From contig NZ_OZ061318.1 of the NCBI RefSeq assembly GCF_964063345.1, positions 1,550,001 through 1,614,000 on the forward strand: 64,000 bases of DNA, given 5' to 3'. Below are positions 47,635 through 51,450 of this stretch, piece after piece. The translations under genes and the position numbers were made by a program. The stretch is from Pseudomonas lini. GTDB taxonomy: Bacteria > Pseudomonadota > Gammaproteobacteria > Pseudomonadales > Pseudomonadaceae. Below the pieces are notes generated by a model that had not been told where the DNA came from, ran no database searches, and saw nothing but the letters and a program-made list of their open reading frames with translations. The stretch's first letter is position 1; every line of letters starts with the position of its first letter.

Positions 47635-48042
47635 GTGTCCAATGTCGTTGCCGATCATCTCGTCTTGCTCGACCACCTGCGCAGCATCCTGGTCGCCGTA
47701 GGTGAGGCCGAACAGGTTCCCGAAGAAAGCCATGCCTTGTTCCTGGAGCGCTTCGACGAACTGCTGGCGTCACTGCCGATCGAGCCGATCGAAAGCCAGT
47801 ACCTGGGCCAGGACATCCTGACGCAGGTCATTTCCCGTTATCCGCAAATCGCCCACCTGATTCCACGGGATCTGCTGTGGTACTTCGCCGGCGACTGCCT
47901 GCACTACCTGTCCGACGAAGAAATCGACTTGTACCAGGCGCTGGAAGAGCGCCGCTTCGAAGCCGAACAGAACGACGAACCGTTCGACTGGAATCAGGAA
48001 AAACAGCTGCTGGCGATGTCGAACCAGGACAGCAAGCACTGA
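47635..48042 (+). CDS. Conserved small acidic protein (PA2816/PA2817-type)
   Basis: A 135-residue acidic protein reading VSNVVADHLVLLDHLRSILV..., ending in DQDSKH-like residues. The GTG start at 47635 is eight bases after TGAGGAC. It lies 100 bases downstream of fadE and matches a conserved Pseudomonas protein found beside fadE, as far as I remember. No membrane segment, signal or catalytic motif is visible; the helices suggest a small regulatory or binding protein. Function unknown. Confidence 0.82.
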   Translation: MSNVVADHLVLLDHLRSILVAVGEAEQVPEESHALFLERFDELLASLPIEPIESQYLGQDILTQVISRYPQIAHLIPRDLLWYFAGDCLHYLSDEEIDLYQALEERRFEAEQNDEPFDWNQEKQLLAMSNQDSKH

Positions 48043-48061
48043 TCCCACAGTCAGTAATGCA

Positions 48062-48097
48062 AAAGGCCCGCATGGTTGAACATGCGGGCCTTTTTTT
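48062..48097 (+). terminator. Terminator after the small acidic protein gene
   Basis: AAAAGGCCCGCATG and CATGCGGGCCTTTT pair around TTGAA and are followed by T residues. Confidence 0.93.
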
Positions 48098-48134
48098 GTG
48101 GCATTGCCGAGTGATGTGGTGGTTCGAAGTTAGT

Positions 48135-48231: not shown

Positions 48232-49230
48232 TCAGAGCAACCCATCACTCTCGGGTAATTCATACTCCGCCGCGACCTTGCCCAATGCACCTGGCTTGCC
48301 CGGCCTGCTCAAGGTTGGCTCCTTCTCCAGACATTCCACCAGATAGTCGATAAGCACCCGTAACTTGGGCGGTAGATAGCGGGTTGGCGAATGCAGCAGC
48401 CAGGCGCCTCCGTGGTAGGAGGCCAGAAAAGTCCAGTCCGGCAGTACCTGCACGATCAGCCCTTGTTCCAGCGCATAACGGGCGGTGAAGTACGGCAAGC
48501 TGCCGATTCCGATGTGTTGCAATACCGCGCCCAGTCGCACGCCCGTGTGATTGGCGGCATAACGTCCGCGTACGCCGACGGTCACGGCTTTGCTGCCTTT
48601 CTTGAATTTCCAGCGTGCATCGCTCGGAGTTTCGCCCAGATAGATGCAGCTGTGGTTAAGCAAATCATGGGGATGAGTCGGGGTGCCGTGTTCGGCCAGG
48701 TACTGCGGCGTTGCGCAGAGCAAATGATCGATGGTCAGCAACTGCCGCCCCACCAGCCCTGCAGGCGGTCGGTCGGTAATACGGATCGCCAGATCGACGT
48801 TGTCGTCGATCAGATCCACCTGACGGTCCTCGAGCAACAACTCCACATTCACTTTGGGATAGCGTCGCAGAAATTCCGGCATGTGCGGATGAATCACGAA
48901 TCGCCCGACAGCTTTGGGCACGCTGACGCGCACCAGCCCTTCCACTTCATGGGTGAACTGACCGCTGATTTCCATCACTGACTTCGCTGCGCTGACCATC
49001 TCCTGGCAACGCTTGAACACCTCTTCACCACCGTCGCTCAGGCGCAGCTTACGCGTGGTTCGTTGCAGCAGCCGCGTGGCGAGCGCCTTCTCCAGCCGCG
49101 AAATGCTGCGACTCACCGCCGAGGGTGAAGAGCCCAATTGACGCGCCGCTTCGGAGAAACTGCCAGTCTCGACAACCTTGACGAAAATCGCCATTTCACC
49201 GAGCAGCGGCAGGGGAAGATTTATGCTCAC
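48232..49230 (-). CDS. LysR-family transcriptional regulator
   Basis: A 332-residue LysR regulator. The helix-turn-helix covers residues 20-60 (GSFSEAARQLGSSPSAVSRSISRLEKALATRLL), followed by an effector domain starting near residue 95. It is divergent from the AlaX-like gene across 90 bases and so is the likely regulator of the AlaX-oxygenase-LysE group. It belongs by pattern to the CrgA/DhcR-like subgroup that controls efflux and stress genes. Ligand unknown. Confidence 0.9.
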   Translation of the reverse strand: MSINLPLPLLGEMAIFVKVVETGSFSEAARQLGSSPSAVSRSISRLEKALATRLLQRTTRKLRLSDGGEEVFKRCQEMVSAAKSVMEISGQFTHEVEGLVRVSVPKAVGRFVIHPHMPEFLRRYPKVNVELLLEDRQVDLIDDNVDLAIRITDRPPAGLVGRQLLTIDHLLCATPQYLAEHGTPTHPHDLLNHSCIYLGETPSDARWKFKKGSKAVTVGVRGRYAANHTGVRLGAVLQHIGIGSLPYFTARYALEQGLIVQVLPDWTFLASYHGGAWLLHSPTRYLPPKLRVLIDYLVECLEKEPTLSRPGKPGALGKVAAEYELPESDGLL

Positions 49231-49320
49231 AGCGCAACAGTCCTTTGATGATTGAACGGATTATCACGCAATTCCACGGTTCATATAATAAAAATAGAAA
49301 CTTTAATAAGAGCATGGAAT

Positions 49321-49947
49321 ATGACGCTTCGCCTCTTCTTCCATAATGATGAGCTCAAGGCCAACGTGGAAGTCCTGGAATGCACACCCCAGGAGAACGA
49401 ATTCGCTGTGGTACTGCGCGCCACATTGTTTCATCCCCAAGGCGGCGGGCAACCCTGGGATACCGGCTGGATCGGCGAAAGCCAGGTGCTGCGCGTGGTT
49501 CAGGACCCGGACCGGATCATCCACTTCGTCGACCACCCGGTAAAACTCGGCATGATCCAGATTCGGGTCGACGAGCAACGACGCCAGTTCAACACGCGCA
49601 TGCATTCGGCGGGTCACCTGATTGGTCACTTCGTCCAGGCGATGGGCTGGATGCCGATCAAGGCTCATCACTGGCCGGATGAAGGACGTGTCCAGTTCAA
49701 GCCGGCTGAAAGCGCGCAGGAGGTCGATGCCCAGACGATTCAACACGGCATCAAGCAATGGATCGCCCATGACCTGCCGCGCCTGACGTCGTTGCGCGAA
49801 GGCGCCCGGGAAATCGGTTTCGGTGAACTGCCCGCCTACGGCTGCGGCGGCACCCATGTACGGAGCCTGAAGGATTTGGGCACGGTCACGATCGCTTCCC
49901 TTTCACAAAAAAAGGGAACGCTGTCAGTCCACTACAGCGTGGATTGA
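49321..49947 (+). CDS. AlaX-type alanyl-tRNA editing protein
   Basis: A 208-residue free-standing homologue of the AlaRS editing domain. His95 and His99 (HSAGH) and Cys175/His179 (CGGTH) form the zinc site expected for AlaX. The N-terminal half resembles the C-Ala/editing barrel part HPQGGGQPWDTG. Such proteins deacylate tRNA-Ala mischarged with Ser or Gly. It has no aminoacylation domain. Start at 49321 avoids a longer frame across the promoter. It precedes an oxygenase and a LysE exporter, which suggests a specialised amino-acid substrate. Confidence 0.88.
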   Translation: MTLRLFFHNDELKANVEVLECTPQENEFAVVLRATLFHPQGGGQPWDTGWIGESQVLRVVQDPDRIIHFVDHPVKLGMIQIRVDEQRRQFNTRMHSAGHLIGHFVQAMGWMPIKAHHWPDEGRVQFKPAESAQEVDAQTIQHGIKQWIAHDLPRLTSLREGAREIGFGELPAYGCGGTHVRSLKDLGTVTIASLSQKKGTLSVHYSVD

Positions 49948-50039
49948 GCATTTGGGCGATGTCGGCCCCGTCATAGCCTGACGCCGGGGGAACCTGCATT
50001 CGCGGGTTCTGTTGACTATCGATAGATGGACCTAAAAAC

Positions 50040-50810
50040 ATGATGCTTGACGTCGAGCGTCTCGATGAGACGTGCATACAAAAACTGGCCAACGAAGAAG
50101 TCCTCGCCATTCGCGTCAAAGGCTTGTTGTCTGGGCCGCTGGCGATCCAGATTGGCGACAAGATCCTCGCCCCCGGCTTCGAAGGCTACATCAACGCGCC
50201 GAGCATCGGTCGCATTGGCATGGCGTTTTATGAAGCGGAAAACCAGCCGCTGCTGATCGAGGATTACTTCGAGCGCGCCACCAGCAATATCGCCGAATTG
50301 CGCAGCCGTTGTGCGCCCTACTCCTCTCCTGTCGATACGTTGCGCTGCATGCTCGACGAGTCCTGGCCGGCGGGGGCGCATCTGGAAAATCTCTACGGCC
50401 GCAAGATGTATGTGGGGTTGTCCCGGGTCGTTAAACCCGGGGTGTGCTTCCTCGCCCATCACGACATTTTCGCCAAGGATGCCCCCGACAGCTTCCAGGC
50501 CAAAAGCCTGGAAGCGCAGTTCGCCTGCAATGTTTACTTGAACATGCCGACCGAGGGCGGCGCGTTGCAGATGTGGGATCACGACATTTCCCCGGACCAG
50601 TTCGACGAAATGCGTGGCGACAGTTACGGCATCGACCCGGCCTTGCTCGGCCCTCCGACCCTGGAAATTCGTCCTGAGCCAGGTGATTTCATCATGTTCA
50701 ATTCGCGCTGCATGCACTCGGTGACACCGGGTGTGGACGACCCGCGATTGAGCCTTTCCTTCTTTGTCGGCTATCGCGGCAATGCTTCACCCCTGACTTT
50801 CTGGAGCTGA
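50040..50810 (+). CDS. 2-oxoglutarate/Fe(II) oxygenase-like protein
   Basis: A 256-residue protein with a double-stranded beta-helix pattern. An H140-x-D142 pair (AHHDIF) and distal His226 (CMHSVTPG) can form the iron triad, and Arg236 in RLSLSFF is placed to bind 2-oxoglutarate. Size and the position of the first iron motif recall the free-amino-acid halogenase/hydroxylase family around BesD, where halogenases have Gly in place of the Asp, so hydroxylation is the more likely outcome here. This relation is from memory. It lies 92 bases after the AlaX gene and one base before lysE-like. Confidence 0.75.
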   Translation: MMLDVERLDETCIQKLANEEVLAIRVKGLLSGPLAIQIGDKILAPGFEGYINAPSIGRIGMAFYEAENQPLLIEDYFERATSNIAELRSRCAPYSSPVDTLRCMLDESWPAGAHLENLYGRKMYVGLSRVVKPGVCFLAHHDIFAKDAPDSFQAKSLEAQFACNVYLNMPTEGGALQMWDHDISPDQFDEMRGDSYGIDPALLGPPTLEIRPEPGDFIMFNSRCMHSVTPGVDDPRLSLSFFVGYRGNASPLTFWS

Positions 50811-50811
50811 G

Positions 50812-51450
50812 ATGTTTTCGAATTACCTGGGCGAGTTTCTGGCGCTGGCAACGATCCACTTTCTGGCCGTGGTTGCTCCCGGACCGGACTTCGCCGTGAC
50901 CATCCGCCAAAGCGTACGTTTCGGCCGCTTAGTGGGGATTTGCACGGCGCTGGGCATCGGCGCGGGCATTTCCGTGCATGTGCTTTACACCTTGCTCGGC
51001 GTCGGCGCGCTGATGCACACCACGCCCTGGTTGTTGACGGTGGCCAAGGTTGTGGGGGGCGCCTACATTTTGTACCTCGGCGTGAGCTTGATACGCAGCA
51101 AACCAAAATCGGCAATTGAAGGCGACAAGGGTGCAGAAGCGTCAGCTGAACGACAGACCTTGTTCAAGGCCTTCAGCACGGGGTTTCTGACCAACGCCAC
51201 CAACCCCAAGGCCACGCTGTTTTTCCTGGCGATCTTCACGACCATCATCAGCGCCACGACGCCGCTGCAGATTCAGGCGCTGTACGGGCTGTGGATGTGT
51301 TTCGTGAATGCCTTGTGGTTTGTGATCGTGGCGCTGTTTTTTTCCAGCGCCCGGGTGCGATTGCTGTTCATGCGCATGGGGCACTGGTTCGAACGAACCA
51401 TGGGGGTGATCCTGATTCTGTTCGCTGGCCGGTTGATTCTGTCGATGTAA
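50812..51450 (+). CDS. LysE/RhtB-family amino-acid exporter
   Basis: A 212-residue membrane protein with six hydrophobic segments and the LysE/RhtB signature VVAPGPDFAVTIRQSVRFGRLVGICTALGIG (in parts) near residue 25. It should export an amino acid or derivative by proton antiport. The start codon lies one base after the oxygenase stop, so translation is coupled. It is followed by a terminator. Confidence 0.92.
   Translation: MFSNYLGEFLALATIHFLAVVAPGPDFAVTIRQSVRFGRLVGICTALGIGAGISVHVLYTLLGVGALMHTTPWLLTVAKVVGGAYILYLGVSLIRSKPKSAIEGDKGAEASAERQTLFKAFSTGFLTNATNPKATLFFLAIFTTIISATTPLQIQALYGLWMCFVNALWFVIVALFFSSARVRLLFMRMGHWFERTMGVILILFAGRLILSM

Follow-up and report, generated by a model that had tools for sequence, protein, structure and literature searches.

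An AlaX-type deacylase, an Fe(II)/2-oxoglutarate oxygenase and a LysE-type exporter are linked in Pseudomonas and on plasmids: a candidate module for one unusual amino acid

In a 64,000-nucleotide stretch of the Pseudomonas lini genome (positions 1550001-1614000 of a 6.58-Mb single-contig genome, contig NZ_OZ061318.1; hereafter the window), three consecutive plus-strand genes encode an AlaX-type tRNA deacylase, an Fe(II)/2-oxoglutarate (2OG) oxygenase, which we call OX, and a LysE-type amino-acid exporter. A LysR-family regulator gene lies divergently beside this trio (Table 1). The gene order and coordinates given in a preliminary description hold, as does its remark that translation of LysE starts one base after OX (OX stop codon at 50808-50810, LysE ATG at 50812). 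We suggest, with modest confidence, that the four genes form a complete unit under LysR control for the synthesis and handling of a single unusual amino acid. In this view OX would hydroxylate a common amino acid, in free form or as a simple derivative, LysE would export the product, and AlaX would hydrolyse tRNA that a synthetase had mischarged with this presumably toxic product, keeping it from the producer's proteins. Lineages in which OX was lost and AlaX, or AlaX and LysE, persisted would be resistant non-producers.

Table 1. Features of the AlaX-OX-LysE locus (positions in the window)
Feature	Position	Strand	Remarks
LysR-family regulator	48232..49230	-	GTG start, divergent from operon; PF03466 128 bits, PF00126 73 bits
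Promoter-like TTATCA-N17-TATAAT before AlaX	49261..49289	+	10/12 consensus bases
AlaX-type freestanding aminoacyl-tRNA deacylase, 208 aa	49321..49947	+	HSAGH and CGGTH metal motifs (HxxxH, CxxxH); PDB 2e1b
13-base block GATAGATGGACCT, upstream of OX start	50021..50033	+	at most 1 mismatch in 75/80 loci
Fe(II)/2OG oxygenase OX, 256 aa	50040..50810	+	PF13640 38 bits; H140-D142-H226 iron ligands
LysE/RhtC-type amino-acid exporter, 212 aa	50812..51450	+	PF01810 121 bits; TIGR00949 155 bits

The grouping of the quartet is not due to chance. Among 398 Pseudomonas genomes, 107 have an OX match of some kind and 81 have a full-length one at ≥87% identity; AlaX lies on the same contig in 81/81 of the latter, 60-110 bp away (median 94). 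AlaX itself was found in 187 of the 398 genomes (E ≤ 1e-20), and the AlaX-OX association has a hypergeometric value of 2e-32, which ignores species relatedness and is not readable as a probability. LysR divergent from AlaX-OX-LysE is kept in order and orientation in 111/111 OX-ortholog loci (two of them are the window itself, and the source sets may share species). As to the non-ortholog OX rows of the Pseudomonas set, 21/33 are covered, by 20 fetched stretches. An acyl-CoA dehydrogenase gene upstream is also kept in the longer Pseudomonas loci. Hence, linkage within the genus is partly shared gene order, and the evidence from outside Pseudomonas weighs more.

Outside the genus, relatives of OX are rare. 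They occur in 2 of 273 other genomes of a class sample, in 6 of 349 of a phylum sample (two of the six being the window's genome and another Pseudomonas), and at 5/119, 5/142 and 2/5 in samples around known relatives; none was found in the viral contigs or phage records searched. The trio is present with every OX relative found at ≥49% identity outside Pseudomonas. At 55-68% OX identity it was seen in two genomes of one gammaproteobacterial family, where LysR also lies beside AlaX (loci L163 and L207), in another gammaproteobacterial family without LysR (L172), on a plasmid of Photobacterium sp. GJ3 (L166, with a degraded copy at L167) and on a 6,362-bp mobilizable plasmid of Acinetobacter johnsonii (L165). 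The last was counted once with an Achromobacter deposit (L168) that shares its length and gene proteins and has a neighbouring strain number. The preliminary description had staked its reading on the three families co-occurring elsewhere, and they do so both throughout the OX-bearing Pseudomonas genomes and at loci well beyond the genus. AlaX is the most divergent trio member outside Pseudomonas (32-46% identity to the window AlaX), yet it is always present. In a plasmid collection, OX was found in 15 records and AlaX in 39; nine records were common to both and seven had the genes adjacent (five without near-copies), the plasmid OX records inspected being those outside Rhodococcus.

The 6,362-bp plasmid carries the trio as its only cargo, besides mobC, a relaxase and an integrase-core open reading frame (ORF); two more small ORFs fall within the relaxase stretch annotated in the sister record. 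With nothing else as cargo, no additional biosynthetic enzyme seems needed, and the trio travelling alone points to a common metabolite as substrate. Its fit on a 6.4-kb mobilizable plasmid further suggests that the trio is transferable from host to host in complete form. Such solitary cargo also resembles many resistance genes and agrees with a different explanation, detoxification, by which OX would inactivate a toxic amino acid of neighbours, LysE would expel it, AlaX would clear the tRNA and LysR would sense the compound. We regard detoxification as possible but rather unlikely. In its favour, the nearest genes in the window contain no biosynthetic assembly line, and exporter-AlaX pairs exist without OX, as LysR-AlaX-LysE on a 15-kb Acinetobacter plasmid and as LysE-AlaX with another helix-turn-helix regulator in Priestia.

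The clusters whose content can be read point the other way: where AlaX and an exporter accompany an Fe/2OG enzyme, the cluster is biosynthetic. The coronamic cluster of Pseudomonas tremae p1 (NZ_CP066271.1) is annotated as carrier protein, hydrolase, cmaA, chlorinating enzyme, cmaC, hydrolase, AlaX and LysE (TIGR01762 chlorinating enzyme 556 bits; AlaX 136 bits; LysE 27 versus 25.6 bits). AlaX (L184:5926-7194 region) lies between a hydrolase gene, which we take to be cmaT, and the LysE gene. As at our locus, an Fe/2OG enzyme, AlaX and LysE thus stand together, here in an unusual-amino-acid pathway; unlike OX, the P. tremae enzyme is a TIGR01762 chlorinating enzyme, presumably carrier-dependent, and its AlaX is 28% alike and on a separate AlaX branch. 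A Salmonella plasmid, pSA20021456.1 (NZ_CP030220.1, L214:2122-7201), carries an adenylation enzyme, a carrier protein, a chlorinating enzyme scoring 446 bits, an AlaX of 52 bits that matches no Pfam family at E 0.01, an EamA (drug/metabolite transporter) exporter and a thioesterase. From its genes, this cluster has the appearance of a self-protected pathway to a chlorinated amino acid. Both clusters are consistent with the idea, already voiced in the preliminary description, that the trio is an unusual-amino-acid module. Among the 40 records listed of 45 with a chlorinating enzyme, ten have AlaX within ~2 kb and one has it far off on the same record; an AlaX match accompanies the chlorinating-enzyme match in each of the nine Pseudomonas records that have the latter. 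Together, clusters of AlaX, an exporter and an Fe/2OG chlorinating enzyme favour, though they do not prove, biosynthesis with self-protection over detoxification.

Turning to OX itself, the protein exceeds the PF13640 family cut-off of 27 bits and has the HxD...H triad and arginine conserved. The H140-x-D142...H226 motif, pointed out from the window alone, is invariant in 17/17 and 16/16 aligned relatives, as are R129 and R236, which are probably the 2OG ligands. Among Protein Data Bank (PDB) entries, a profile built from alignment A1 matches WelO5 (E 2e-13) and 3w20/3w21 (E 4e-5), the latter of which we take to be SadA. According to passages of PMC3665795, SadA binds metal and 2OG through H155, D157, H246, R141 and R255 and acts on small N-substituted amino acids. 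These ligands match OX H140/D142/H226/R129/R236 by order and spacing, not by structure. For the WelO5 family PF22814, the window OX scores 20.5 bits (cut-off 27) and a paralog (L117) 54.1 bits, and all six members of alignment A2 match at E ≤ 1 (best 1e-9); the NCBIfam L-isoleucine dioxygenase model gives a weak match (20 bits versus a cut-off of 500). Judged by these comparisons, OX appears to belong to a WelO5/SadA-related group with an invariant HxD. Both are profile kin of low sequence identity, and WelO5 is a halogenase by its Pfam title.

BesD-type halogenases are similar to OX in size and in the idea of a free-amino-acid Fe/2OG enzyme. The preliminary description had likened the two in size and first-motif position, but sequence kinship was not found: no PDB chain named BesD was among the matches of the OX protein (to E 10) or of its profile (to E 1) in the sequence search. 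The BesD-type HxG/A hallmark is also absent, HxD standing in 16/16 OX-family rows where BesD-type enzymes have HxG. Because the HxD is invariant, hydroxylation rather than halogenation is predicted, in agreement with what had been read from the Asp in place of Gly. The predicted structure of OX has a mean pLDDT (predicted local distance difference test) of 50 (input: the window protein and 34 orthologs, 90-99% identical). The secimide halogenase, as it appears in passages of PMC12171316, was judged unrelated to OX.

In Pseudomonas, OX paralogs of ~35% identity adjoin an ORF for a cyclodipeptide synthase (CDPS) in 7/16 loci by a crude ORF caller (L115-L118, L120, L121, L126); the one CDPS member tested scores 29 versus 27 bits in Pfam and matches a PDB CDPS at E 1.7e-56. 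Such loci are possible cyclodipeptide natural-product clusters. Around the CDPS-OX paralogs, the loci tested contain genes for a major facilitator superfamily (MFS) transporter, a TonB receptor and an NMT1-like periplasmic protein, and in another locus a luciferase-like monooxygenase. Another OX relative (L203) is located before a nonribosomal peptide synthetase (NRPS), and a 29% relative sits in a Dolichospermum cluster that we take to be the cylindrospermopsin cluster, with CyrI as its oxygenase. The CDPS, NRPS and cylindrospermopsin-like neighbourhoods point to a group of small-molecule tailoring oxygenases. The last of these relatives, and WelO5, which acts on an alkaloid, lend support to the notion that OX has a non-amino-acid metabolite as its substrate, that AlaX and LysE serve ordinary tRNA quality control and export, and that the genes are linked by shared regulation only; the frequent occurrence of AlaX next to LysR where OX and LysE are both absent also suits it. 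We consider this improbable, since AlaX is the neighbour of OX in every one of the 81 ortholog genomes and on plasmids of several classes, and LysE belongs to an amino-acid exporter family.

CDPS enzymes use aminoacyl-tRNA, and the OX family thus has two kinds of tRNA-linked partners, AlaX deacylases and CDPS. This, together with the tight AlaX-OX linkage, could be accounted for by tRNA-tethered chemistry, in which OX would modify an amino acid esterified to tRNA, AlaX would release it in the manner of a thioesterase and LysE would export it. The tRNA would then be a carrier, the editing enzyme a release step, and the OX relatives beside CDPS a peptide-forming version. We find such chemistry highly improbable: SadA works on small N-substituted amino acids, according to passages of PMC3665795, WelO5 is carrier-protein-independent according to its Pfam title, most inspected OX relatives have no AlaX, and LysR-AlaX persists without OX.

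AlaX matches solved AlaX structures (PDB 2e1b, E 1.6e-13; fold by sequence match), its residues H95, G98, H99 and C175-H179 are invariant in 8/8 rows of alignment A3, and its start at 49321 agrees with aligned relatives. It misses the curated scores (AlaXM NF040865, 69.8 bits versus 300; tRNA_SAD PF07973, 20.8 versus 24); the trio AlaX proteins of L165 and L172 exceed the PF07973 cut-off (36.6 and 30.4 bits). By these scores the window protein is classed as an AlaX relative, not a curated AlaXM. The window protein retains T35 of the motif T-x-F-H-P-x-GGG, a threonine presumably in contact with the amino acid; in Embleya, Salmonella and Streptomyces cattleya this position is Asn. In the AlaX tree the proteins of Embleya (L176), S. 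cattleya (L178) and the Salmonella halogenase cluster (L214) group together (94/91), and the Thr to Asn exchange in this group is a possible change of specificity. Two further tRNA_SAD genes in the genome (frames of 898 and 652 aa) are presumably the alanyl- and threonyl-tRNA synthetases; AlaX is therefore not the sole editing domain. LysE lies above the PF01810 cut-off (121 versus 25.6 bits), is under the cut-off of the TIGR00949 homoserine/threonine efflux family (155 versus 184 bits) and also under that of the RhtC threonine exporter model NF007591 (96 versus 288 bits). As a guess from this likeness, an RhtC-like LysE hints at a threonine- or homoserine-like product.

The history of the locus also bears on the choice between making and destroying a compound. 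A tree built from LysR and AlaX has 63 rows: 21 without OX, L163, L207 and 40 of the 80 OX-bearing loci. On it the presence of OX changes eight times, at least five of them by supported branches. The OX-less rows are 20 hand-picked, non-random genomes from the 106 with AlaX only, plus L130. Between AlaX and LysE of L130 (4001-4144, genome G331) only the last 48 OX residues, 209-256, remain, which is a direct trace of loss, and LysE still lies beside AlaX in 5/20 of the chosen OX-less genomes. In pairs with dS of 0.05-1.2, the median ratio of nonsynonymous to synonymous substitution rates (dN/dS) among OX-bearing loci is 0.03 for LysR, 0.05 for OX, 0.07 for LysE and 0.10 for AlaX; in OX-less genomes it is 0.06 for LysR, 0.14 for AlaX and 0.11 for LysE (15 pairs). 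AlaX is thus constrained and seems still functional where OX is missing. Repeated loss of OX while AlaX, and sometimes LysE, stays under purifying selection is as expected of a resistance part. Against detoxification, conservation among the three operon genes is highest for OX, yet OX disappears ahead of LysE or together with it, which is not what a first-line resistance enzyme would show.

Several observations weigh against the proposed producing module. Many Pseudomonas genomes have AlaX without OX (187 versus 81 of 398), which means that AlaX also serves a purpose independent of OX, perhaps simple editing of Ser-tRNA(Ala). AlaX without an adjoining exporter or OX was likewise seen in the inspected Klebsiella, Chimaeribacter, Cupriavidus, Pantoea, A. 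venetianus and Vibrio plasmids. No adjacent AlaX was seen at 37 of 40 loci with OX below 40% identity (L114-L129, L131-L133, L164, L169-L171, L173-L177, L179, L199-L206 and L208-L210; some are near-copies, the last two listed were covered by annotation and a plasmid AlaX search only, and L205 ends 0.2 kb after OX), although a remote AlaX could be missed at L114-L126, L128, L132, L164, L171 and L179, where the window's AlaX was the only query. At the other three, Caballeronia L169, Undibacterium L177 and Embleya L176 (OX 28-36%), AlaX directly follows OX, the reverse of the trio order, and no LysE match adjoins the pair (an MFS gene takes its place in Embleya). As for chlorinating enzymes, 29/40 listed records were absent among the AlaX matches listed, which in one search were 40 of 65. 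In 8/9 coronamic plasmids the AlaX match is split in two pieces with no listed gene, and AlaX may be dispensable there.

The trees separate these distant pairings from the trio. Nine trio OXs form one clade (support 100/99), and those of Caballeronia, Undibacterium and Embleya fall outside it, in a tree with a weak backbone and several long rows whose group test, with ungrouped rows left out, needs only one change. Hence, the pairing of OX with AlaX, which extends to other phyla, either arose repeatedly or is old and often lost. When the 27 rows of an AlaX tree are marked for the presence of OX, the label 'with OX' changes eight times, no tighter than shuffled labels (206/500 as low), which implies that AlaX and OX do not have one common history.

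Dedicated tRNA deacylases directed against unusual amino acids are already known. FthB of S. cattleya is the fluorothreonyl-tRNA deacylase reportedly described by McMurry and Chang in 2017. That system is said to include an exporter, and its product to be fluorinated by another route with no Fe/2OG oxygenase involved. As in our proposal, passages of PMC11295145 present a freestanding tRNA deacylase that protects against one self-made unusual amino acid; they place FthB as ProXp-ST1-related in the INS superfamily, whereas the window protein is AlaX-like and falls outside the INS deacylases. The same passages thus speak against FthB being an AlaX homolog. An fth-like system has a dedicated deacylase and an exporter linked to the producing enzyme; our locus agrees with this in gene content and linkage, with OX as the putative producing enzyme and AlaX as the putative protector. 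Another precedent, the canavanyl-tRNA deacylase, is said to belong to a different protein family from AlaX. It, too, is an editing protein that stands alone and is directed at a non-proteinogenic amino acid, protecting tRNA-Arg from canavanine, and the title and opening of the abstract of PMC10018355 mention no oxygenase-exporter unit. According to passages of PMC11295145, AlaX proofreads Ser- and Gly-tRNA(Ala). No description of AlaX as self-protection against unusual amino acids, or of the AlaX-OX-LysE trio, was found in open-licence PMC papers, where a passing remark on AlaX is possible.

If the proposed module is real, AlaX would have a further, dedicated function in self-protection against non-proteinogenic amino acids or in resistance to them, and the signature of AlaX, an amino-acid exporter and an Fe/2OG enzyme would become a search tool for undiscovered antimetabolite amino acids. 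The recurrence of this kit in unrelated bacteria and on a small mobile plasmid suggests that nature has an amino-acid antimetabolite yet to be described, or a defence directed at such a compound. With one enzyme, one exporter and one deacylase, the trio is small enough to be completely testable.

Block GATAGATGGACCT ends 5-8 bases upstream of the OX start and is probably the OX ribosome-binding region; the rest of the AlaX-OX spacer varies among the Pseudomonas loci, unlike the block. It was not found in the 21 OX-less loci or before five non-Pseudomonas OXs, and a 22-base block containing it has no second match elsewhere in the genome with up to three mismatches allowed. The promoter-like TTATCA-N17-TATAAT occurs once in the region scanned versus 0.8 expected by shuffling, a count that by itself carries no evidential weight; an alignment of the window with 16 orthologs shows both hexamers preserved. 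An Rfam scan gave only Thr-leader matches, far under threshold, at 48038-48098, outside the operon. The nearby genes in the window encode an acyl-CoA dehydrogenase, an OprD porin, an MFS transporter and a second LysR, and one ORF belongs to no family.

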